From assembly GCA_014730275.1 (NCBI GenBank), contig WJIL01000077.1, positions 1-45,629 on the forward strand: a stretch of DNA of 45,629 bases. Direction: 5' to 3'. This DNA comes from Candidatus Lokiarchaeota archaeon (GTDB lineage Archaea; Asgardarchaeota; Thorarchaeia; Thorarchaeales; Thorarchaeaceae). The position numbers and the translations under genes are program-made. Under the pieces are notes generated by a model. It was not told the origin of the DNA. It saw only the letters and a program-made list of their open reading frames with translations, and did no database searches. Shown piece after piece: positions 16,785-36,441 of this stretch. Positions within the stretch are counted from its first letter, which is position 1. Each line of letters opens with the position of its first letter.

Positions 16785-17456
16785 ATGATAGTAATGGAGC
16801 TCAAAAGCAAAGAAGACATCCTCGAGATGCTCGAGGGGTATGAAAAGATAGTCCTCTTTGGCGATTCTGGCTGTGCGCAGATGTGTGATGTGGGTGGTAT
16901 ACTACAGCTGGAGGACATGACTGATTTTCTTGCGGATCATGGGAAAGACGTGCTTGGATATGTGTTTGTAGAAGGTGGTCTTTGTGACGAGTTCGCAACC
17001 AAGCAAGAACTTGAAAAACACAAGAACATGCTGGAAGAAGCCGACGCTTTTCTTGTTCAGGCCTGCGGCGTCGCAACTCAGAATTTGACAGAGATGGTGC
17101 CTGAGAAAATATCGTTGCCTGCTGTTGATTCTGATTTCTTAGGAACTATGCCTGAACGATTCCATCACGATGAGCGGTGCTCGATGTGTGGTGAGTGCGT
17201 TCTTGATCTTACTGGCGGAATCTGTCCAATTACTCGCTGTGCAAAAGGGCTCCTCAATGGTCCCTGTGGCGGCTCAATGGATGGTATGTGTGAGCGCGAT
17301 GAAGATACTGAATGTGCGTGGCAGTTGATTTATGATAGACTTAGAGAGATAGATAAACTCGACAACATTAAGCGGATTTGGGAAATGAAGGATTGGTCCA
17401 AGAAACATGGTCCTAAAACCATTGTTCATGAAGCCAAGGACGCTCTATTCCAGTAA
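16785..17456 (+). CDS. metV: MTHFR C-terminal-domain protein, MetV-like
   Basis: A 223-residue iron-sulphur/zinc cysteine protein of the methylene-tetrahydrofolate reductase C-terminal domain family. The N-terminal half is an alpha/beta domain with a cysteine pair (FGDSGCAQMCDVGGILQL) and a later LVQACGVAT. The C-terminal half carries the diagnostic cysteine block RCSMCGECVLDLTGGICP followed by ITRCAKGLLNGPCGG. In acetogens MetV is the small partner of MetF in methylene-tetrahydrofolate reduction. Here the metF gene follows at once, supporting that pairing. The open frame extends to 16686 inside hflX, but no start there is plausible; ATG 16785 or 16794 (MELKSKEDIL) is chosen by where the conserved domain begins. 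It opens the C1 cluster. Confidence 0.82.
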   Translation: MIVMELKSKEDILEMLEGYEKIVLFGDSGCAQMCDVGGILQLEDMTDFLADHGKDVLGYVFVEGGLCDEFATKQELEKHKNMLEEADAFLVQACGVATQNLTEMVPEKISLPAVDSDFLGTMPERFHHDERCSMCGECVLDLTGGICPITRCAKGLLNGPCGGSMDGMCERDEDTECAWQLIYDRLREIDKLDNIKRIWEMKDWSKKHGPKTIVHEAKDALFQ

Positions 17457-17541
17457 TCCCTTTTTTTCGAGACAACCAAAGCAAATATCTATCTCCCTTG
17501 TTCGTTTGCCTTACACCTGTACAGAGGAGATTCAAATTCTA

Positions 17542-18474
17542 GTGCAAACGCATCTCAGTAGATTGCTTGAAGACAATAGGTTTGTCGTCACAGCTGAAGT
17601 TGGACCACCGCATGGTGCAGATGAACAGCTTTTGATAGACCGGGTGCTACACGTGAAAGACTACTGTGATGCCCTGAATCTTACTGACAATGTTCGCGGT
17701 ATTCCAACCATGAGCAGTATGGTGTGCAGTCATTTCGTTCGAGATTGTGGCATTGAGCCTGTTATGCAGATGTCAGCACGAGATAGAAATCGCATTCTCT
17801 TTGAGAGTGAACTTTATGGTGCATATGCCCTTGGCATTAGAAATGTCTGCTTCATGACCGGTGATCATTCTTTGCTTGGATCTCATCCTGAAGCCAAGAT
17901 GGTTTATGATTTAGATTCAATTCAGGCACTACAGCTAGCGAGTCATCTCATGAGCGGAAACGACCTTGCCGGTGATACACTAGAGGGCACACCTCATTTC
18001 TATCTTGGTGCAACTTTCAATCCTTATGCTGATCCTATCGAATTACAATCTTGGCGGGTCAATAAGAAGCATAAAGCAGGAGCTCGTTTCTTCCAGACAC
18101 AAGCCATATACGGTGTATCTCGTTTTGAGAGATTCATGAACAGATTGGATGTTGATGCCATTAAGACACTTGCAGGGATTATTCCGTTGAAGGGCCCAAG
18201 GATGGCCCGATTCATGAATCGTAAGATACCAGGTATCAAAATTCCTGAAACCATGATTCGGCGACTGGTTGATGCTGGGGATGGGTTAAGCGGAAACGAA
18301 AAACGAGGGGTGGTCAGATCAGAAGGTATCAGAATCGCACTAGAGACCATAGAGAAGGTTCGAGCTATCGATGGTGTTGATGGTATTCATATCATGGGTG
18401 TGGGATGGGAAGAAAGCATACCTACCCTAGTAAAAGAAGCTGGTCTCTATCCGAGGCCAAAGAAAGGTGAGTAA
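17542..18474 (+). CDS. metF: Methylene-tetrahydrofolate (or -methanopterin) reductase, MetF family
   Basis: A roughly 310-residue flavin-dependent TIM-barrel of the MTHFR family, predicted to reduce the methylene group to methyl on its pterin carrier. Recognisable blocks are FVVTAEVGPPHGADEQLL, CDALNLTDNVRGIPTMSS, the LGIRNVCFMTGDH substrate/FAD block, LGATFNPYADP and ARFFQTQAIYGVSRF. GTG 17542, preceded by GAGGAGA, is the likely start; the longer frame from 17407 would overlap metV and has an unlikely sequence. In most archaea with tetrahydromethanopterin the F420-dependent Mer does this step, so MetF beside MtrA/MtrH homologues is noteworthy. Whether the carrier is folate or methanopterin cannot be read from the sequence. 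It ends two bases before the first mtrH-like gene. Confidence 0.85.
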   Translation: MQTHLSRLLEDNRFVVTAEVGPPHGADEQLLIDRVLHVKDYCDALNLTDNVRGIPTMSSMVCSHFVRDCGIEPVMQMSARDRNRILFESELYGAYALGIRNVCFMTGDHSLLGSHPEAKMVYDLDSIQALQLASHLMSGNDLAGDTLEGTPHFYLGATFNPYADPIELQSWRVNKKHKAGARFFQTQAIYGVSRFERFMNRLDVDAIKTLAGIIPLKGPRMARFMNRKIPGIKIPETMIRRLVDAGDGLSGNEKRGVVRSEGIRIALETIEKVRAIDGVDGIHIMGVGWEESIPTLVKEAGLYPRPKKGE

Positions 18475-18476
18475 CC

Positions 18477-19394
18477 ATGTTTGTTTTCAAAAAGGAGCAG
18501 AAGGCATTCGATTTCGGAGGAATTCACATTGGTGGTAATCCCGGCGAGAATCCAACGGTCGCAATTGGTGGCCTTTTCTTTCGAGGTCAGAGAGTTGTAA
18601 AGAGTAGCAAAAAGGGCCGTTTCGATGAGGTTCTGGCGAAAGAATGGATTGAGAGAGCCAAGGATATGGAGCAGAAGACCGGTCATCCATTTCTGATTCA
18701 GATTTACGGGCGAACTGCTACTGCCATGGAGAATCATCTTTCATGGCTTGTTGAGAACTACGATGGTCCTTTCATGTTCGAGTCAACCAGTTCTAAGGCA
18801 CGAAAGCGAGGGATTGAATATTGTGATGGACAGGACCTTGAGAATCGAGCGATTTACAATAGCATCAATCTCTCAATGAAGGATGATGAAAAGAAACTAC
18901 TAGAAGATAGTTCTCTCCATATGGCCGTTGTTTTGGGTTGGTCCCCCCGAGCAACCACCTTGAAAGAACGAATGGAAGTCATTGAAACGATGCTTGATGA
19001 AGCAACTGACATGGGCATCGATAAAATGGTGGTGGATCCCGCAACGATGCCGGTAGGTGCTGGGTACGGTCTCGATTACAGAACCATAATTGCAATCAAA
19101 TCAGAGTTAGGTTTGCCTACCTGTCTTGGCCCCCACAATGCACCTTCAGCATGGAAATTCCTTCGACGTCCAGAGCTGGACAACCCGGAAACTCACCTTG
19201 CAGCAATAGTCGCTTCAACAACCGCAGCTCAGGTGTTAGCAACGGACTGTATCATGTATGGTTCAATGGCTCGAACAGAAGCGGTCTATACGGCTTTTGC
19301 ACTTATCGGTAATGCAATTGCATCTGCTGCCGCTGAATCACATCGTGCTCTTGGCCTAGATTCTGATATTTTCGAACCAACTTCATTTGAATAG
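18477..19394 (+). CDS. mtrH: MtrH-family methyltransferase, copy 1
   Basis: This 305-residue TIM-barrel protein belongs to the family of the H subunit of tetrahydromethanopterin S-methyltransferase, which moves the methyl group between methyl-pterin and a corrinoid protein. The family also includes bacterial corrinoid:tetrahydrofolate methyltransferases such as MtgA. The typical start MFVFKKEQ, the IGGNPGENPTVAIGGLFF block, FMFESTSSKARKRGIEYC, VDPATMPVGAGYG and GPHNAPSAWKFL are all present. ATG 18477 lies two bases after the metF stop, with AAGGTGAG before it. It diverges strongly from copy 2 at 20108, so the pair probably serves different methyl donors or acceptors. It is not evidence for methanogenesis by itself. 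Confidence 0.88.
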   Translation: MFVFKKEQKAFDFGGIHIGGNPGENPTVAIGGLFFRGQRVVKSSKKGRFDEVLAKEWIERAKDMEQKTGHPFLIQIYGRTATAMENHLSWLVENYDGPFMFESTSSKARKRGIEYCDGQDLENRAIYNSINLSMKDDEKKLLEDSSLHMAVVLGWSPRATTLKERMEVIETMLDEATDMGIDKMVVDPATMPVGAGYGLDYRTIIAIKSELGLPTCLGPHNAPSAWKFLRRPELDNPETHLAAIVASTTAAQVLATDCIMYGSMARTEAVYTAFALIGNAIASAAAESHRALGLDSDIFEPTSFE

Positions 19395-19397
19395 GTT

Positions 19398-20105
19398 GTG
19401 AAAACTGTGCCTGATGAAAAACAAAACAAATCTTGGCCTCCTATTCCAGGCGATTACACTGTTGACAATCCCGATTTGTCTGTGGCTATTTGTACACTTG
19501 GCAAGAAAATTGCGGTACCGCCGCCCTACGCGATAGCTGGAACATGCAAGACAGAGAATATCGGAATCGAACGCATGATTGCAAATGTAGTTTCGAATCC
19601 CAATATTCGCTTTTTCATTATGGTTGGGCCGGAGGTTCCAGGACACCGTACCGGCTCTACCCTTCGTTGTCTGTGCGAGAATGGCCTGGATGAGACTACG
19701 CACAAAATTCTGGGAGCCCCAGGTGCTATTCCCTATATTGAGAATGTACCCTCGGAAGCTGTTGAGCGTTTCAGGAATCAGGTAGAGCTTATTGATATGA
19801 TGGGAAACTCGAATGTCAACGATATTGCTACCAAGATCCAGAACCTGTTATCACAATCCCACGAATCCTATCAGGCGGAACCGCTGTGGATTGATTTTGA
19901 AGTGCGTGATAGTGGTACGAAAGCAATAGGTCCAACTGCATCAGTTGGAGTTCTACCGGAGTTTGGAGTATCTCTAGATCCTTCGACTTCTCTTGTTACT
20001 CATCAACATTCCCAAGCCAAGATTTCGTTACACCCGATTGAAGTCAGCATTGAAATTCAAGATAGTGATACTGGAACTGTTCTCGTTGGAAAGGAGATTG
20101 AGTGA
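19398..20105 (+). CDS. mtrA: Soluble MtrA-like corrinoid protein
   Basis: A 235-residue homologue of the corrinoid-carrying A subunit of tetrahydromethanopterin S-methyltransferase. The block WPPIPGDYTVDNPDLSVAI, the CKTENIGIERMIANVVSNPN stretch and GAIPYIENVP are family hallmarks. His83 in VGPEVPGHRTGS lines up with the known cobalt-ligating His84 of methanogen MtrA. The methanogen enzyme ends in a membrane helix; here there is none. Instead, from about residue 155 there is an unfamiliar 80-residue beta-rich tail (EPLWIDFEVRDSGTKAIGP...). It could resemble DUF4346-like domains, which I cannot verify. GTG 19398 follows the previous stop by three bases. Flanked on both sides by MtrH homologues, it is the likely soluble methyl carrier. 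Confidence 0.85.
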   Translation: MKTVPDEKQNKSWPPIPGDYTVDNPDLSVAICTLGKKIAVPPPYAIAGTCKTENIGIERMIANVVSNPNIRFFIMVGPEVPGHRTGSTLRCLCENGLDETTHKILGAPGAIPYIENVPSEAVERFRNQVELIDMMGNSNVNDIATKIQNLLSQSHESYQAEPLWIDFEVRDSGTKAIGPTASVGVLPEFGVSLDPSTSLVTHQHSQAKISLHPIEVSIEIQDSDTGTVLVGKEIE

Positions 20106-20107
20106 AA

Positions 20108-21034
20108 ATGTTCATTTTTGAAAAAGAGCAATACGTCTATGACATCGCAAATGTCCGCATCGGTGGGATGCCAGGTGAGAACCCCACGGTTCTGGCTGGA
20201 ACAATCTTCTACAGTGGGGACCAGATTGTTGAGAATCCACACAAGGGGATCTTCGATCGATCAGAGGCGGAAACTCGCATCAAGACACAAGAAGAAATGT
20301 CTGACAAAACTGGGAATCCAGCCCTAGTGCATATCTTTTCGGAATCTTCCGATGCGGCAGAGGAATACATCGATTTTGTATCCTCCGTTACAGATTCTCC
20401 ATTTCTCATAGATTCTACAGAATCAGATGTGCGCATACGAGGTCTTCGCCATGCGCAGGAAGTCGGGTTACTGGACAAAGTGGTCTATAATTCACTCAAT
20501 ATCTCTGTAACAAGTGAGGAAATCGAATCTCTCAAGAAAATTGGCCCTGACTCCGCTATCATACTTGCTTTCAATCCACAGGATTCTTCAATTGCTGGGC
20601 GTCGAGCCGTCTTGGAGGAGGGAGCAGGAGACTTGGAGAACGGATTACTTACCTTGAGCCGGGAAATTGGCATTGACAAACCTCTTATCGATACTGCAAC
20701 TACCACCATGGGTTCTGGGGCGGGTTCAGCTGCTGCTTTTACTTTTGTCTCCAAAGCAACTTTCGGTCACCCTACTGGCTCCGGAATGCATAATGCTCCA
20801 TCATCATGGCACTGGATAAAGGAACAGGATGAGGAGATTTACAGAACATGTGATGCTGCATCCAATCTAATCGGCCAAATCCTAGGTGCTGATTATCTGC
20901 TATATGGACCAATCGAGAATGCTGAAAGCGTGTTTCCAGTGGTTGCAATGGGTGATATTTTCGCAGCTGAAGCTTTGAGTAATGAATTTGGAATAGAAGC
21001 TACTGAAAACCACCCGTTCAGGAAGCTACTGTGA
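20108..21034 (+). CDS. mtrH: MtrH-family methyltransferase, copy 2
   Basis: A second, 308-residue MtrH homologue. ATG 20108 is chosen because MFIFEKEQYVYDIANVRIGG lines up with the start of copy 1 and AAGGAG lies ten bases upstream; GTG 20102 is also possible and overlaps the mtrA stop. It keeps the family blocks RIGGMPGENPTVLAGTIFY, PFLIDSTESDVRIRGLRHA, IDTATTTMGSGAGSAAAF and GMHNAPSSWHW. It is closer to the classic MtrH pattern at the N-terminus (GTIFYSGDQIV) than copy 1. The duplicate with MtrA between the two copies suggests a relay in which one copy loads and the other unloads the corrinoid; this is inference. Confidence 0.87.
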   Translation: MFIFEKEQYVYDIANVRIGGMPGENPTVLAGTIFYSGDQIVENPHKGIFDRSEAETRIKTQEEMSDKTGNPALVHIFSESSDAAEEYIDFVSSVTDSPFLIDSTESDVRIRGLRHAQEVGLLDKVVYNSLNISVTSEEIESLKKIGPDSAIILAFNPQDSSIAGRRAVLEEGAGDLENGLLTLSREIGIDKPLIDTATTTMGSGAGSAAAFTFVSKATFGHPTGSGMHNAPSSWHWIKEQDEEIYRTCDAASNLIGQILGADYLLYGPIENAESVFPVVAMGDIFAAEALSNEFGIEATENHPFRKLL

Positions 21035-21050
21035 TTAGAAGGTACTTGTG

Positions 21051-22493
21051 ATGTCCGGTAAGTTCCGACGAGTTACACCGCGATCTCTTACTGTTTCTTC
21101 CATCCGCATGGGCGACTTCTATACCGTAGCATCCGTAGAACTCGGAAATACCACCTCCAAGTGCATATTAGTGAGCACAAACTTGAACACCGCTGAAATA
21201 TTTGAAATCGAAAAGGAAGTTGCATTCACGCGTACCGTTCGTTCTCCCCAAGATGATGAAGAGACCTTTGGGCGAACGCTTGTAGGTGTGGACTTGACTC
21301 ATGAATCTGTTAAGGAATTCATCTCCGATTTGCTTAAGGGAGTCATCAAAAAAGCCAGAATCAGACTTCAAGAGGACCTACATTTCGTCGTTCGTTCTAC
21401 TGGGGTAACTGCTGGTTTTGCAAAACCTGAAGACGTCGGGAAAATGGTCAAGGCACTTGCGGAGGGGTGTATTGAAGCCGGTGTTCCAACCAATAGAATG
21501 ACTGCTGCACTCTCTCCTGACAACCTTCCGCCTGGGATACGTGATTTCACATGGTTGAAGAAGGTCTATTTTGATGGTGCTGTTGCAAGCTGTCTTCCAC
21601 CTGCGGAAGCATCTATCGTGGCAAATGAGATGGAAGGGGAGCTCGTAACAGCCGGTCTCAAAGGTGCAGCAAAGAGTACCGATGTTGATTTTAGGAATCC
21701 TGTGTTGACGCTAGATTTCGGAACAACCTTGGCAGGAAGAGCGACGGATGACCGATATCCATATGCAAGAACCATTGGTTCTTTCGCTGGTCTAGCCGGA
21801 GCCATTCCCGATGCCTTGGCAAGAACTGTCCCATCTGTTGATTCTCTGAGTGGTTGTGTCCTCGATTTGCCTGTAGTTAGATCTGAGAATTATGGTACTA
21901 TACATGACCATGTAGAAGAAGCTCACAAGCTAATCAAAGTTGAACGTGTGCCCGAAGGTGTCAAACGATATGGTACTGTTCCTGTGAATCCAGCTGCAGC
22001 CAAAGATGGAGACGTGATCCTCATAGGGGTTGATGTGGGTGTGAATGCGTCACAACTACACAAGCTTAGCGGCATTGGTCAAGAAGCCTTCCAAGAGAAT
22101 GGAGTCTCAGGGCTCTTAGCGCTGATTGATGCTGTCCAAGTTCATTTGGTTCAACGACTCCTGACTGTAGCAGAAACCAAAGGTCTGATTCTGCCGTCGA
22201 CCTCATTGGGCCTGACTGGAAGAGCTGTTGTTACAGGAAGAAAACCGGAGATTCTTGCAGAGAACCTGAAGCTGGCAGATGGTACACTTTGGACCGAAAA
22301 TCACGATCTACTCGTTGTGGATGACGGACTTGCTCTTGGAGCTGCTGTCGCAGCGAGATGCATGAATTCAATGGGTACACGAAGCAATCCTATGGGTGGT
22401 AGAAAAGGAGATGCTTGTATAATGGGTGCCAGAATGAAATTACAGAGTAACAACAAGAACTCACACGAGAATCCTACAAAGGATAGCGAATAG
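21051..22493 (+). CDS. Methanogenesis marker protein 14 homologue
   Basis: A 480-residue protein of the methanogenesis marker 14 family, until recently regarded as confined to methanogens. Very distinctive stretches are FYTVASVELGNTTSKCILVS, DEETFGRTLVGVDLTHESV, DLHFVVRSTGVTAGFAKPED, YFDGAVASCLPPAEASIVAN, VLTLDFGTTLAGRATDD and PYARTIGSFAGLAGAIPDAL. The two glycine-threonine phosphate-binding blocks (ELGNTTSKC and DFGTTLAGR) suggest an actin/hexokinase (ASKHA) fold, as in the reductive activators of corrinoid proteins such as RamA. An ATP-dependent corrinoid-reactivation role next to MtrA is therefore attractive but unproven. ATG 21051 follows the mtrH stop by 16 bases; a terminator hairpin begins right after its stop codon. 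Confidence 0.85.
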   Translation: MSGKFRRVTPRSLTVSSIRMGDFYTVASVELGNTTSKCILVSTNLNTAEIFEIEKEVAFTRTVRSPQDDEETFGRTLVGVDLTHESVKEFISDLLKGVIKKARIRLQEDLHFVVRSTGVTAGFAKPEDVGKMVKALAEGCIEAGVPTNRMTAALSPDNLPPGIRDFTWLKKVYFDGAVASCLPPAEASIVANEMEGELVTAGLKGAAKSTDVDFRNPVLTLDFGTTLAGRATDDRYPYARTIGSFAGLAGAIPDALARTVPSVDSLSGCVLDLPVVRSENYGTIHDHVEEAHKLIKVERVPEGVKRYGTVPVNPAAAKDGDVILIGVDVGVNASQLHKLSGIGQEAFQENGVSGLLALIDAVQVHLVQRLLTVAETKGLILPSTSLGLTGRAVVTGRKPEILAENLKLADGTLWTENHDLLVVDDGLALGAAVAARCMNSMGTRSNPMGGRKGDACIMGARMKLQSNNKNSHENPTKDSE

Positions 22494-22522
22494 GTCTGCT
22501 TTCAGCAGACTTTATTTTGTTC
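22494..22522 (+). terminator. Terminator hairpin closing the C1/methyl-transfer operon
   Basis: GTCTGC (22494-22499), a five-base loop and GCAGAC (22505-22510) form a perfect stem followed by TTTATTTTGTTC. It starts immediately after the TAG stop of the marker-14 gene, so transcription of the metV-to-marker-14 operon probably ends here. Confidence 0.7.
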
Positions 22523-22539: not shown

Positions 22540-23337
22540 ATGGTGGCTCTCTTGCTGGTACTCCCAATACGAACGAAAATTATCTCTGAAGATGATCATC
22601 TTCTTGATGTGCTGCTGGATGGCCTAGAAAAACAAGGTCTGGAATTAAGGGATAATGACATTCTCGGCATAGCAGAAACACCCTTGGGAACCACTGAAGG
22701 GCAGGTGGTCTCTTTGGAAGATATCGATGTTTCTCAGCAGGCACAAGAGTTGGCTGGTCGTCACAACATCGTGCCAGAAGTGGCAGAGCTTGTTGTTAGA
22801 GAAGCCGATGAAATACTTGGCGGTATTCCTCATGTTCTGTTGACTATCAAGAACAACACACTCATGGCAAACGCTGGGGTTGACAAATCAAATGTACCTG
22901 ACGGATATGCATCTCTGCTTCCTGCAAATCCTCGCCATAGCTCCGAGCTTCTCAGGAACGAGATTCGAAAGCGGTTTGGTGTTACAGTTGGGGTCATGGT
23001 AATTGACAGCAGAACACAGCCCCTACGTCTAGGCAACATAGGTATGGCCTTGGCAGTTGCAGGGTTTGAACCAGTTGCTGATGATAGGGGACGACAAGAT
23101 TTGTTTGGAAATGTATTGAGAATCACACGTAGAGGTGTAGCAGATAACCTTGCTTCTGCTTGCACTGCAGTTATGGGAGAATCTGACGAGTCAACGCCGG
23201 CCGCTCTTATCCGCGATGCACCTGTTACCTTTGTAGACAGATCATTTGACTCATCAGAAATGTGGATTTCGCCAAAGGAGTGCATGTACATGGCGATTTT
23301 CGAGCAATGGCGGGCCAGAAGCGATACTGACTCCTAA
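22540..23337 (+). CDS. CofE-like F420-0:gamma-glutamyl ligase family protein
   Basis: The 265-residue product fits the CofE family (COG1478), which adds glutamate to coenzyme F420-0 using GTP. Visible family blocks are LPIRTKIISEDDHLLDVLLD, VVREADEILGGIPHVLLTIK, NAGVDKSNVPDGYASLLPAN, VGVMVIDSRTQPLRLGNIGMA, and DDRGRQDLFGNVLRITRRG with VADNLASACTAVMGE. Several family subclades exist; the substrate could be F420 or another C1-type cofactor needing a glutamate tail. The location directly after the MtrA/MtrH/marker-14 operon hints at cofactor synthesis for C1 metabolism. It starts at ATG 22540 with no good Shine-Dalgarno sequence, downstream of the terminator hairpin, so it probably has its own promoter. 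Confidence 0.78.
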   Translation: MVALLLVLPIRTKIISEDDHLLDVLLDGLEKQGLELRDNDILGIAETPLGTTEGQVVSLEDIDVSQQAQELAGRHNIVPEVAELVVREADEILGGIPHVLLTIKNNTLMANAGVDKSNVPDGYASLLPANPRHSSELLRNEIRKRFGVTVGVMVIDSRTQPLRLGNIGMALAVAGFEPVADDRGRQDLFGNVLRITRRGVADNLASACTAVMGESDESTPAALIRDAPVTFVDRSFDSSEMWISPKECMYMAIFEQWRARSDTDS

Positions 23338-23510: not shown

Positions 23511-24884
23511 ATGGCAAAGAGAGACGTTCTATTTGACGGTGCAACCGCTGGCGCATCTGGTGATATGATACTATCCGCTCTTATTGATTTACTGGGGGAT
23601 AAACAAGCACTTGATCCAGTTGCAGCGGGACTTCTGATTTACGATCCAACTCTCCGCGTTACTTTCAACGAACGGCAATTTGAAGATGCATCCGGGTTGG
23701 AAATGGATGTATTGCTGGATGAGGACATGACATTAGAGCCACAGGCCCTGAGAAACGTACTAGCAACTATGTCCAGAGAGGTCGAGCTTTCAGACAAAGC
23801 TGCAGAACTGGCTCGAAACTCCTTAGAGGCTCTTTTCAGAGCGGAAAGTCGGGCACATGATGAAGACATCTCGGATATACATCTACATGAGCTTGGATCT
23901 GTTGATACTATTCTTGATATTGTAGGTACAGCCTATCTTTTGGACAAGGCCGACCTTCTTGAGGATTCGAGACTACTGGTAACGAATTTAGCAGTTGGTT
24001 CTGGAACAATCACCACTGCTCATGGGGAACTCGACGTACCTGTTCCAGCAGTTTCAGAAATAATCGAGGAATTTGACATACCCTTCCACGCTGGACCTGC
24101 CAAAACTGAAGTTTTGACTCCAACAGCCGCCGCCATCTTGGGCACGATTGCTGACCAATTTGTTGAATCTGCGCAAGGTTTTGAGGTTGAGGAGGAGGCA
24201 TTTGGTTTTGGCTCCCGGGATCTGGGTGAGATACCCAATGTTTTGCGGGTTGCAGTTGGAAATGCCTCAGGAATAGAGCCAGAAGTGAAAAAAGAAGAGC
24301 CTGCGGAACCCGAAGAAGTCGCTGAAGCAGAGCCTGTTGAAGAAGTTGTGACACCTGCACCAAAACCGGAAGCTCAACCAACTAAGGAAGAAGTGGATTT
24401 GGATGTAGATGAGGGCTGGGGGCGTGACGAAGTGATTGTTATAGAGACTAATGTAGATGACACCGATGGGGAATCTATAGGAACGCTTTTCGAGTTTCTT
24501 TTAGATGAGAATCTTGCCTATGACGCGGTCATAATTCCTGCTTATGGTAAGAAAAACCGACCATGTTTTGTTGTCAAGGTGATTACAACTCAGGAAAACA
24601 TGAAAGAGGCTGCACGAGTCATAATACGTCACCTAGGAACTCTGGGCATTCGCTACACTTCATGGAATAGAATCAAGGCAGCCCGTGAGACTATTGTTTG
24701 TCAACTACAAATCGAGGACAAAGAATACATGGTTCGTGTTAAGGTATCGCGTGCAGCAAATGGAACTGTAGTCAATATCAAACCTGAAGCCGATGATGTG
24801 TTGAAGGTTTCGAGAGAAACAGGTATCCCGATTCGAGAGCTAAAACCCAGAATAGCCATGCAAGCTCATGCCATTACTGAATGA
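23511..24884 (+). CDS. larC: LarC-like nickel-insertion protein (nickel-pincer cofactor synthesis)
   Basis: The 457-residue protein fits the LarC/DUF111 family, the CTP-dependent cyclometallase that inserts nickel into the pincer nucleotide made by LarB and LarE. The N-terminal part starts LFDGATAGASGDMILSALID; HLHELGSVDTILDIVG, TNLAVGSGTITTAHGEL and VLTPTAAAILGTI follow. The C-terminal part has ETNVDDTDGESIGTLFEFLL and KKNRPCFVVKVI. Residues about 255-300 are a Glu/Pro/Ala-rich linker joining the two halves, which in Lactiplantibacillus are joined by programmed frameshifting; here they lie in a single frame. larB, larE and a racemase are not in the window. It ends overlapping the opposite polymerase gene by 11 bases. 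Confidence 0.88.
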   Translation: MAKRDVLFDGATAGASGDMILSALIDLLGDKQALDPVAAGLLIYDPTLRVTFNERQFEDASGLEMDVLLDEDMTLEPQALRNVLATMSREVELSDKAAELARNSLEALFRAESRAHDEDISDIHLHELGSVDTILDIVGTAYLLDKADLLEDSRLLVTNLAVGSGTITTAHGELDVPVPAVSEIIEEFDIPFHAGPAKTEVLTPTAAAILGTIADQFVESAQGFEVEEEAFGFGSRDLGEIPNVLRVAVGNASGIEPEVKKEEPAEPEEVAEAEPVEEVVTPAPKPEAQPTKEEVDLDVDEGWGRDEVIVIETNVDDTDGESIGTLFEFLLDENLAYDAVIIPAYGKKNRPCFVVKVITTQENMKEAARVIIRHLGTLGIRYTSWNRIKAARETIVCQLQIEDKEYMVRVKVSRAANGTVVNIKPEADDVLKVSRETGIPIRELKPRIAMQAHAITE

Positions 24885-28566: not shown

Positions 28567-29766
28567 TTACGAAGCGGATTCAACTTGTTGATGTACCGCT
28601 TCGTAGATTCTACTGGCTGCGATGTGGAGGAGTTCCTCCTCGTCAGAGTGCACTTCTATTCTCACTTTGGTCTTTGACTCATCTGTTTTCCCAACTAGTG
28701 TTAAGTGAATGACTACTCGTGTTTGATTGAAGATGCTCTCCGCTGCTCCAATCAACAATGCTCTCATCATACCGTCTCTCTCTGAAGATTCTTCCCTAAC
28801 TAGATGTAGATTCTTCTCTTTGAATATCCGTTTTAGTAATCTGAAGAGACTTCTTGGATTGAACCTAAGGACATGTTCTCTGCTCCATGGTTTCATCTCC
28901 ATTCTGGCGACGCTGAATTCCCTTGAGGTCAAATCCAAGGGTTTCATCTGGGAATAGAGCGATCTGACAAGGCAATTTCCCGACTTGGCGGACACCTCCT
29001 GACCGAGATGGTTTTTCATGACAACGGCGATTACCATTTCCCCTTCTACGTAGTTCGCCACCTTCTTGAAATCGAATCTGATTCTAGCTTCTTCTGAAGG
29101 GGATAAGTCTCCTACTTGAGCCGCCCTATCGCTTTCGAGTTTGAGACCATCTGATGGATATGTCAGGAGTGAAACGTTCGTATCCTCTACTCTTTGTTTC
29201 CCCTCGTTCGTAAGCCTGACAAGGAGAGATATTCCCTCATCCTCTTCTTGGCATTTGCTTTGAACATCAATATAGCTGACCGTCCTAACTGGCAACTCAT
29301 TTGTGAATAGGTCCGGTCTCCTTGCTGCCGCATAGAGTACATCTTGTGTCTCTTTCTCTCCGCTTACGGTTTCGGCTTGATTCACGTATTCTAGTATTGA
29401 CTTGACCCTTTCATCCGTTAGTTTCTCTTCGGGTATTTCGCTCCGTGAGACTTCTACCCCGATAGCATGTAACATTCCTACAGCTGCCGTACAAACAACT
29501 GGTGTGATATCATACAATGCAATCTCTAGTGCTTCTTGTGCTTCTTGACCAAACTCGGCAAGTTTACAAACCGACAGCAATCTGAGTTCATCATCGCCCA
29601 CAAGAGCTGCATCCTTACAAGCTTGTAGTGTTTGAAGCTCTGCAAGCGCATTGTTCAATTCCTCTCCTCTGGGCCGGAGGAATCTCTTGACATTGTCCTT
29701 CACATACCGGAGAGCCTCTATTCCTTTCAGCTTTTGCAGCAATGACTCCCCTTCTTGACTCTCCAT
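28567..29766 (-). CDS. HEAT-repeat protein with beta-sandwich and possible appendage-like C-terminus
   Basis: A 399-residue protein (410 with ATG 29799). Residues about 20-100 contain alpha-helical pairs typical of HEAT/armadillo repeats (ALAELQTLQACKDAAL, SVCKLAEFGQEAQEALEIA, ITPVVCTAAVGMLHAIGV). Residues about 170-265 look like an Ig-type beta-sandwich (GISLLVRLTNEGKQRVEDT, NVSLLTYPSDGLKL, LSPSEEARIRFDF, EGEMVIAVVMKN). The last 130 residues are alpha/beta (VVIHLTLVGKTDESKTKVRI followed by EVHSDEEELLHIAASRI). A solenoid followed by a sandwich and a platform-like domain is the arrangement of eukaryotic adaptor/coatomer subunits; at this level it is only a resemblance and needs structure prediction. 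No signal peptide or transmembrane segment. It lies between two small GTPase genes. Confidence 0.6.
   Translation of the reverse strand: MESQEGESLLQKLKGIEALRYVKDNVKRFLRPRGEELNNALAELQTLQACKDAALVGDDELRLLSVCKLAEFGQEAQEALEIALYDITPVVCTAAVGMLHAIGVEVSRSEIPEEKLTDERVKSILEYVNQAETVSGEKETQDVLYAAARRPDLFTNELPVRTVSYIDVQSKCQEEDEGISLLVRLTNEGKQRVEDTNVSLLTYPSDGLKLESDRAAQVGDLSPSEEARIRFDFKKVANYVEGEMVIAVVMKNHLGQEVSAKSGNCLVRSLYSQMKPLDLTSREFSVARMEMKPWSREHVLRFNPRSLFRLLKRIFKEKNLHLVREESSERDGMMRALLIGAAESIFNQTRVVIHLTLVGKTDESKTKVRIEVHSDEEELLHIAASRIYEAVHQQVESAS
28568..28605. repeat. Two-tier inverted repeat at a convergent gene junction
   Basis: TACGAAGCGG (28568-28577) pairs perfectly with CCGCTTCGTA (28596-28605), and inside it TCAAC (28580-28584) pairs with GTTGA (28587-28591). 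The structure lies in the last codons of the HEAT-repeat gene and just past the end of the GTPase gene at 28547. It may end plus-strand transcription; there is no T run after it. Confidence 0.4.
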
Positions 29767-29938
29767 GGTATAGTCCCCATAGTAAAGAATGTGATGCATT
29801 CGATTTAACGCTTACTGATTTCCTATGATACTGATGTGAAAGCTAGGAAATATGCGAATATACCTTGGCTTGGTTTTGGCTGGCTTCAGAACACTTTAGT
29901 ACACCTCTAATGCATTCCCGTAATGTCTCCTCAATGAG

Positions 29939-34146: not shown

Positions 34147-36441
34147 ATGGAGACCAGATTGGAGGTAACTATCAGGGATATTTTATGCGCTTCAGTTTCC
34201 CTAGATGATGGTTTATCCGCAATCCAAAGTCTGTCAATCGACGGCTCGATTGATAAGGAACTTGCTTTTGATATTGCTAGGGCAATTGAAGAAATAATCC
34301 TACGAAATCCAGAGGTAGCCAACTCAAAACTGACAGAAATCATTGTTAAATTAGCTTTCGAAGAAAATCGAATGCTACCTCAAATGCTTAGTCTTCTTGA
34401 TACGAGGTACACCCACAGTGCCAGAAGAGCAGCAATAGAACTGGAACCAGATTTGGAATCGATTCCCGTTCTACTAGATCTTCTCGGTGAGCTATCTCAT
34501 GGAATTGACCGGGCTCTACGACTGAATCTACGCCCATTGGTTCCGTTCCTGGTAGATGAAATGGTTCAGACAATGGAATCTATTTGGTCCAAGCAACATC
34601 GTCCATCCACTCACCTTGCTCTTCATGAAGTACACGAATTGACTACCTATTTGGTTGAAGCTGGCTTCTTTGAAGGTGCAGAAGCTTTACTCAATCGATT
34701 AATCGAAATGGCTGATGACATTGATTTGCAGACACTCTATTTCGAAGCCTCACTAGATGAGGCTGGAGTTCTTACGGAACTGGGCCTTTATGATCAATCA
34801 AGAGAAATCCTTGCTGAATTAAGACCACGAATTCGTGCTTCTGGCGATTCGGTGCGGCTTGCGGCTCTTACTCTTCAATTGGCTATCAATGAGACCCGTG
34901 ATGACGAAGTTGCATACAAGAGAGCTCGATCATTGGCTGACAAGGCTGCTGATATGTTCGGTAGTATTCTCGACACCGACGAGGTGAACAAAGATGGGCT
35001 TGTTTTGGCTCACCTTGTTATTGGGTCGAGCATTTTGGCTAATGGTTGGAGAGAAGGCATCTCTGATGCTATAGAGCGATTGGAGAAATCCTTGAATCTA
35101 TTGGAAGGCATTCCTAATCGAACACCGGCTCAATCGAATCTCATGTACCGCTGCTTGTGCAGCCTGGGTTTTGCATATGGTATGATTGATCGCGAAATTC
35201 GAGTTTCGGATGGTCTTACATATCTGAATCGTGGAAAAGAGATTCTAGATGAAACCAGCATGACTGCTTCGGAAGCCAAGGCGGAGCGCGCAGCGTGTAA
35301 CAATGCTATTGGATGGATATGTCTTACTTCAGATTCGGACGAATTCAGAAATACCGGACTAAAAGCGTTTGAAGAGTCCTTGGAGGCTCGTCAGGAGCTT
35401 CTTAAAGCTGATAAAACTCCTGATATAACATTGCTTGGTACCCGAATGGGTCTTGCTCTATCAAAGATACGGATACCAAGCAGGAATTCCGAAATTCCCT
35501 TAGAGAATATTCGAGAAACACTTCTGGAGTACATACAGCTTTTCCCCGTTGATACAAGAAGCTTTGTTGAGGTCGCTATTTCCGTCTACAACCTTGTGTT
35601 GCTCAGCTTCAGACATGATATTGACCTCCCAGAGCGATTGATACGCCTTCTTGATGACATAGACATGATGTTGTCCGACGCGAGAGCAACTAGTGATTCA
35701 CCGTTCATACATGGCGAGGCCCTTACAGTTCCTTACGCAAGCAAATCATGGACGACTCTATACGACCGGGCAGAGAACATTGCTAATAGAGTTCCGGAGC
35801 TAAACAAGGCTGCTAATATGCTCAAAGCGGCTGCTACTGCTAAAATTAACCTCCAAATTCTAAATCGCCAGCGAGTTGTCAAGATTCGTAATCCAATTGA
35901 ATCTCAAACCATGGAATCGGATGCACTCTTAGCTCAGTATTGGAAAGGGCAGACAGCTCTTGCTAATGCGCTAAAGACATATTTTGAAAACAAAGATTAC
36001 TCTGAGCTGGCTACAGGTCTCCATAAAGCAGCACGAGAACTGAGTATTGTGGAAACGATTGATCCTGACTATGACGGCTCGGAGTCTTTCATCAAGGGGA
36101 CAGCTCAATCCTTAGCAGCATTACTAGAGCGGTTCTCTCAGGCACTTGAGAGCGGATACGGGGCTGTGATTAAAGGACCAGCTGGAGGAAGCCTCGATAT
36201 TAAACAAGGGAAATATGACTTTCTGCTACCTGAAGACTGGATTGGCTTAGTGCGAATCTCCGAGTCCTACCTAGAATTGATTGAGGAAATGGAATCCGTT
36301 CACGCACAGCCATATCTTAACGCGGTATTTTCAAACATGTCCCGAGCACTACAGATGATGGATCGAATATCCATGGCTGATAGACGTGTGTTGTCTATGC
36401 TCGGAAGGGTGATGAATGAACGCTACTACCTACGGAGCTAG
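34147..36441 (+). CDS. Large alpha-solenoid (TPR-like) protein
   Basis: The 764-residue protein is almost entirely helical with no signal peptide or transmembrane region. Helix pairs of about 34-40 residues recur, for instance AGFFEGAEALLNRLIEMADD, ASLDEAGVLTELGLYDQSRE and RAACNNAIGWICLTSDSDE, in agreement with tetratricopeptide-like repeats. Its last 200 residues (LLERFSQALESGYGAVIKGP...) look like a separate helical domain. I do not recognise a named family. TPR solenoids serve as scaffolds; here it follows the KaiC/Roadblock/GTPase cluster, so a role as a platform for those proteins is an inference. It ends overlapping the opposite EF-2 paralogue by 4 bases. Confidence 0.7.
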   Translation: METRLEVTIRDILCASVSLDDGLSAIQSLSIDGSIDKELAFDIARAIEEIILRNPEVANSKLTEIIVKLAFEENRMLPQMLSLLDTRYTHSARRAAIELEPDLESIPVLLDLLGELSHGIDRALRLNLRPLVPFLVDEMVQTMESIWSKQHRPSTHLALHEVHELTTYLVEAGFFEGAEALLNRLIEMADDIDLQTLYFEASLDEAGVLTELGLYDQSREILAELRPRIRASGDSVRLAALTLQLAINETRDDEVAYKRARSLADKAADMFGSILDTDEVNKDGLVLAHLVIGSSILANGWREGISDAIERLEKSLNLLEGIPNRTPAQSNLMYRCLCSLGFAYGMIDREIRVSDGLTYLNRGKEILDETSMTASEAKAERAACNNAIGWICLTSDSDEFRNTGLKAFEESLEARQELLKADKTPDITLLGTRMGLALSKIRIPSRNSEIPLENIRETLLEYIQLFPVDTRSFVEVAISVYNLVLLSFRHDIDLPERLIRLLDDIDMMLSDARATSDSPFIHGEALTVPYASKSWTTLYDRAENIANRVPELNKAANMLKAAATAKINLQILNRQRVVKIRNPIESQTMESDALLAQYWKGQTALANALKTYFENKDYSELATGLHKAARELSIVETIDPDYDGSESFIKGTAQSLAALLERFSQALESGYGAVIKGPAGGSLDIKQGKYDFLLPEDWIGLVRISESYLELIEEMESVHAQPYLNAVFSNMSRALQMMDRISMADRRVLSMLGRVMNERYYLRS

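Follow-up and report, generated by a model that had tools for sequence, protein, structure and literature searches.

A Thorarchaeia operon of Mtr parts as a possible soluble methyl-transfer hub with a proposed corrinoid reactivase

We analyzed a 45,629-nt stretch of DNA (the window; contig WJIL01000077.1, our C77) from an Asgard archaeon of the Thorarchaeia, the genome of which measures 3.64 Mb and is 99.5% complete. Six genes on the plus strand (16785-22493) encode, in order, MetV, MetF, a divergent MtrH paralogue (MtrH1), MtrA, a second MtrH (MtrH2) and methanogenesis marker 14, as assigned from reading frames and family models, and all six frames are intact. We propose, with moderate confidence, that they form a soluble methyl-transfer hub assembled from parts of the Mtr methyltransferase and served by its own B12 reactivase. 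The proposal builds on the genes, their order and conservation, the ligand residues, the methyl sinks missing from the genome and the predicted fold of marker 14; from these we infer which enzymes act as partners, which way the methyl group flows and what accepts it, as well as a reactivating role of marker 14.

Conservation and ligand residues of the operon

For comparison, loci of relatives were drawn from the same family, and block counts were read off the resulting locus table. The MtrH1-MtrA-MtrH2-marker 14 block is present in the same order in all 32 loci uncut by contig ends, and therefore the operon is not a chance arrangement. The Asgard origin anticipated by the original prediction, made from the sequence alone, was borne out. 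In 29 of 30 relatives, the gene next to MtrH1 on its 5' side is MetF; the exception, G186, has no MetF at this place. MetV was found in 21 of the 47 Thorarchaeia genomes, and marker 14 in 44 of the 228 genomes of the phylum, 43 of them from this family and one from another. In a different Asgard family, a contig (L055 in G180) starts inside MtrH, with genes for a CofE-type ligase and marker 14 (~47% identity) following in this order; an MtrH-CofE-marker 14 link is therefore present outside the Thorarchaeia. At some loci (L034, L035, L060, L043, L047 and L062), one or two large solute-binding-like proteins are encoded between MetV or HflX and MetF. Inserts of this kind beside MetF were considered as electron partners and rejected, as they resemble extracellular solute-binding proteins (judged by reading).

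MtrA carries His83 (equivalent to His84 of methanogens), Glu53 and a GAIPYIEN motif, corresponding to the cobamide motifs defined for methanogen MtrA (PMC4915002). All 28 MtrA copies checked keep the axial His, the Glu hydrogen-bonded to it and the cobalamin motif GAIP(Y/F)xEN, and these residues, together with the PF04208 match, identify a cobamide-binding MtrA domain. The protein scores 173 bits with TIGR01111, under the cut-off of 249. Its peak hydropathy is 1.07, compared with 2.4-2.8 in methanogen MtrA, and the C-terminal membrane helix that would serve as an anchor is missing; in a low-confidence model, a beta-rich tail (residues about 170-235) takes the place of the helix. These features support a role of MtrA as a soluble carrier that probably binds cobamide. 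The original prediction had described a soluble, membrane-independent unit in which a corrinoid carrier is linked to a MetF branch, and the lost helix and retained cobamide residues agree with it.

The two MtrH proteins, the only copies in the genome, differ at the pterin site, for which Asp102, Asn128, Asp195 and Asn229 are the known ligands (PMC10998594). MtrH2 scores 386 bits with the equivalog model TIGR01114 (cut-off 271) and retains all four ligands; across relatives, 28 of 29 copies have Asp102, and the remaining ligands are invariant (29 of 29). MtrH1 reaches 229 bits, below that cut-off, and is a PF02007 family member in which Asp102 is replaced by Glu in all 31 copies with Asn128, Asp195 and Asn229 retained. 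In the tree, MtrH1 forms a single Thorarchaeia-only clade on a long stem. A common origin of MtrH1 and MtrH2 was not rejected by the approximately unbiased test (p-AU 0.51), although MtrH1 sits on a long branch; a separate acquisition of MtrH1 is unsupported. The other subunits (MtrB-G), among them the integral MtrCDE, are reported missing from Thorarchaeia (PMC9635834); no search aimed at them was made in this genome.

The arrangement of six genes on one strand is as the original prediction had it. The first two carry the PF12225 and PF02219 domains of MetV and of its partner MetF. The gaps, claimed to be mostly 2-16 bases, are ~85 bases between MetV and MetF and then 2, 3, -4 or +2 (depending on the MtrH2 start) and 13; the claim thus holds at the other junctions and fails at the first. 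The perfect hairpin with a T run that was said to close the operon is also there, with a 7-bp stem (GTCTGCT-TTC-AGCAGAC) and a T-rich tail (TTTATTTTG), and likely marks the end of the transcript. However, nine terminator-like sites were found in the region against 4.9 expected, so that the hairpin pattern alone is weak evidence for termination.

Fold and gene linkage of marker 14

No solved structures related to marker 14 by sequence were found. A predicted model is of confident quality (predicted local distance difference test, pLDDT, 84.6). In a Foldseek search with this model, ranks 2, 4, 6 and 8 were occupied by RACo, the reactivator of the corrinoid iron-sulphur protein, or by the complex of RACo with its corrinoid protein (3zyy, 4c1n), with E values from 1.8e-7 to 3.4e-6. 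The ASKHA phosphate motifs ELGNTT and DFGTT are conserved in marker 14. The predicted model, the fold search and the motifs all point to the ASKHA ATPase fold that characterizes RACo-type reactivators (RACE/RACo), and marker 14 is accordingly predicted to be an ASKHA-fold ATPase.

The gene linkage extends to methanogens. Of 50 methanogen loci, 32, mainly from Methanobacteriales, have marker 14 located 3' of mtrH in the same orientation. The link is missing from the Methanococcales loci and from some others; in Thorarchaeia, marker 14 follows MtrH2. A marker termed m26, which we assume to be marker 14, was called Mtr-tied and reported in Thorarchaeia (Adam et al. 2022, PMC9635834). A literature search on marker 14 or DUF2114 returned no relevant paper, supplements and most subscription journals being outside its coverage. 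From the predicted fold and the gene order, we propose that marker 14 may reactivate MtrA.

Methyl sinks, proposed mechanism and alternatives

The genome lacks several enzymes that could receive a methyl group from a corrinoid. First, no PF02249 match (McrA) was found in it, as expected from the original prediction that Mcr would be missing, and hence it does not have the hallmark of methanogenesis. Second, it has no PF03599 match (CdhD/CdhE), so the hallmark of the Wood-Ljungdahl pathway with CO dehydrogenase/acetyl-CoA synthase (CODH/ACS) is missing. Third, MttB gave no match in the genome, and MttB-linked methylotrophy is thereby rejected here and also in the only congener. Use of methylated compounds, which had been suggested as a possibility, would therefore need MtaA/CmuA-type enzymes and survives by that route only. 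Fourth, no MetH- or BHMT-type enzyme (PF02574) was found in any of the 47 genomes. Fifth, nothing exceeded the PF01717 cut-off in any of them; the same search also misses the Methanosarcina acetivorans control, and the PF01717 negative therefore does not cover MesC. Mch is present in the genome and nearly universal in the family; at least part of the methanopterin branch therefore exists.

Five proteins of the URO-D/MtaA/CmuA families are encoded in the genome, some of them adjoined by B12-binding proteins. One URO-D class, found in most genomes of the family, has an H-x-H motif and a distal Cys (by reading), and its nearest NCBIfam models are of MtaA/MtbA type, with scores below their cut-offs. 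One such URO-D-superfamily protein of most Thorarchaeia, which often shares a contig with Mch, is encoded at 1868-2905 of contig C24 (L196, G000) and is a candidate MtrA partner. On contig C102 (L197, 886-11540), two MtaA/CmuA-family proteins surround an MtbC/MtgC-like corrinoid protein beside Hdr-type-looking redox genes, and on contig C9 (L198, 4378-6723 and 9177-10322), a large glycyl-radical-enzyme-like open reading frame lies near another URO-D-family protein.

In the hub that we propose, MetF and MetV would convert methylene-tetrahydropterin into its methyl form and back. MtrH2 would shuttle the methyl group between N5 of the pterin and the Co(I) centre of the corrinoid bound to the soluble MtrA, and MtrH1 would do so independently. 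When the cobalt is accidentally oxidized to Co(II), marker 14 would restore MtrA at the expense of ATP, much as the corrinoid iron-sulphur protein is restored by RACo. Methyl-MtrA might then exchange its methyl group with MtaA/CmuA-family methyltransferases of the URO-D superfamily and their B12 partner proteins, which we put forward because the CODH/ACS, Mcr, MetH-type and PF01717 sinks are unavailable in this organism. Methylated compounds or thiols would thus be linked through the hub to the tetrahydromethanopterin (H4MPT)/folate pool, MetVF providing the redox step.

Several observations speak against this proposal. In the fold search, Qri7 is level with or slightly above RACo, and sugar kinases are close (template modelling score, TM, about 0.3-0.4); since RACo is one of many ASKHA matches, the fold alone is no proof of reactivation. 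The iron-sulphur domain of RACo is missing from marker 14 of the window, which has no CxxC and is assigned by Pfam to DUF2114 only. The operon contains no MtaA-type gene, so that the partnership with MtaA is drawn from other content of the genome only.

The closest alternative is a special case of the hub, in which MtrH1 and MtrH2 act on different pterins, folate and methanopterin, and MtrA mediates between the two pools. In every one of the 32 untruncated loci, a single MtrA stands between two conserved MtrH paralogues, the invariant change of Asp102 to Glu lies in the pterin site of MtrH1, and enzymes of both the folate and the methanopterin branches have been reported in Thorarchaeota (PMC6737245). 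On the other hand, pterin specificity is unreadable from sequence, and a heterodimer of the two would equally explain the pair, MtrH acting as a dimer (PMC12774963). In addition, exchange alone explains little if there is no methyl sink. We regard this alternative as possible, though unlikely. The bolder combined claim, that marker 14 reactivates MtrA at the expense of ATP in both methanogens and Thorarchaeia and that MtrH1-MtrA-MtrH2 is a corrinoid exchanger between two methyl-pterin pools without CODH/ACS or Mcr, is doubtful as a whole.

A slightly less probable alternative is methionine synthesis, in which methyl-MtrA donates to a homocysteine methyltransferase, by analogy with the predicted MesA/MtrA pairing (Price et al. 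2021), MesA being predicted to take its methyl group from MtrA in methanogens (PMC7857596). Because none of the 47 genomes has a MetH- or BHMT-type enzyme, a corrinoid-dependent path to methionine would close a gap, and the widespread URO-D protein with its H-x-H and distal Cys is, in five genomes, also a weak PF01717 match. Nevertheless, this match stays under the cut-off throughout, the protein is best described as MtaA/MtbA-like, and the spacing of its metal site differs from that of MesC (hand count).

Transfer of the methyl group into CODH/ACS, as suggested by the original prediction, is improbable. Convincing CdhD/E matches are present in 19 of the 47 Thorarchaeia genomes, many of which also have the core block, and the near-universal Mch fits such a sink. 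The remaining 28 genomes, including this one, have no convincing CdhD/E match (a weak C-terminal match in G184 was set aside), among them G182, G195 and G222, which are 96-98% complete and in few contigs; cdh was likewise not found in Baja_Thor (PMC6737245). Since genomes without CdhDE have kept the block, CODH/ACS is disfavoured as a general reason for the operon; as a sink it is rejected for this genome, unless CdhDE falls within the missing part of the assembly or has diverged beyond the reach of PF03599. Furthermore, operons with MetV occur almost exclusively in genomes that lack CdhDE: 18 genomes have CdhDE only, 20 MetV only, one both and eight neither. The Fisher p value for this avoidance is 5e-6 over the 47 genomes, 0.0015 over the 22 that are at least 90% complete and 1.0 over the 11 that are at least 95% complete. 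On the tree, MetV differs in only about four of the eight independent contrasts, with the direction opposite in nearly all of them, and a sign test gives p 0.125. In view of the tree-based test and of the most complete genomes, we do not take the exclusivity as established, and the avoidance is suggestive only.

Finally, that the operon is a decaying remnant of methanogenesis without present function, as the missing Mcr and the reported loss of the other Mtr subunits (PMC9635834) might suggest, has a negligible probability, given that the sampled genera preserve both the gene order and the ligand residues and that the six frames are intact.

Related systems and neighbouring features

The operon resembles the canonical N5-methyl-H4MPT:coenzyme M methyltransferase (MtrA-H) in the cobamide site of MtrA (His84, Glu54, GAIPYxEN), in the pterin site of MtrH and in the position of marker 14 3' of mtrH, as in Methanobacteriales. 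It differs in having an MtrA without a membrane helix, a second MtrH, and MetF/MetV, with no Mcr and with the other subunits reported missing. MtgA of Desulfitobacterium (PDB 6sj8 and relatives) is an MtrH-family enzyme that transfers methyl between a corrinoid protein and tetrahydropterin with the same four pterin ligands; its score against MtrH2 is far below that of methanogen MtrH. The partner of MtgA is the B12-binding protein MtgC, not MtrA. RACo (PDB 3zyy, 4c1n) shares with marker 14 the ASKHA fold predicted for the latter and a gene link to a corrinoid methyl carrier; in contrast to RACo, marker 14 has no iron-sulphur domain, and no sequence similarity between them was detected.

The core of the finding is already published: canonical-type MtrAH with a marker and without other subunits was described in the same lineage (Adam et al. 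2022, PMC9635834). That study states that these lineages retain the Wood-Ljungdahl pathway, in contrast to the 28 genomes without a convincing CdhDE match here. In its main text, MetF/MetV, the MtrH1 paralogue and the RACo-like fold were not found. The pairing of a bacterial-style MetF with archaeal MtrA/MtrH, which the original prediction called unusual, is real, but MtrAH with the marker was known. The MetF/MetV linkage, the invariant change in MtrH1, the predicted RACo-like fold of marker 14 and the persistence of the operon through much of the family in the absence of CODH/ACS appear to be new; a literature search for MetF, MetV, MtrH and archaea together found no paper, supplements and most subscription journals not being covered. 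In the parts of PMC11291895 available to us, other Asgard MtrA/MtrH proteins, including MtrAH fusions of Atabeyarchaeia and Freyarchaeia, are likewise Mtr parts without Mcr, and the fate of the methyl group is stated to be uncertain. Unlike the operon described here, these forms are fused or divergent and lie near MttB-type genes, reliance on the Wood-Ljungdahl pathway is claimed, and those parts contain no marker 14 operon.

If the hub reading holds, a methanogen marker protein of unassigned role would gain a function, and the question of Mtr reactivation could be tested directly in a culturable methanogen. It would also mean that parts of the energy-converting Mtr work as a soluble hub, independent of acetyl-CoA synthesis, in the Asgard group, the closest archaeal relatives of eukaryotes.

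The features are listed in Table 1 together with two conserved neighbours downstream.

Table 1. Features of the operon and its downstream neighbours in the window
Feature	Position	Strand	Evidence and remarks
MetV	16785..17456	+	PF12225, 117 bits; iron-sulphur partner of MetF; 223 aa; starts M-I-V-M like relatives
MetF, methylene-tetrahydropterin reductase	17542..18474	+	PF02219, 108 bits; GTG start shortly 3' of GAGGAG
MtrH1, divergent MtrH paralogue	18477..19394	+	PF02007, 234 bits
MtrA, probable soluble corrinoid carrier	19398..20105	+	PF04208, 184 bits
MtrH2, canonical-type MtrH	20102..21034 (alternative start ATG 20108)	+	PF02007, 370 bits
Methanogenesis marker 14 (DUF2114)	21048..22493	+	TIGR03285, 574 bits (cut-off 274)
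Hairpin and T-rich tail	22492..22522	+	7-bp perfect stem; likely transcript end
CofE-type F420-0:glutamate ligase	22540..23337	+	conserved neighbour; possibly outside the operon
LarC-type nickel-insertion protein	23511..24884	+	conserved neighbour, without demonstrated functional link

Elsewhere in the window, two long open reading frames (34147-36441, 764 aa; 28567-29799, 410 aa) have no Pfam match, and a WD40-repeat protein encoded at 29939-31072 matches many eukaryotic beta-propeller families (302 bits with the WDR3 model).

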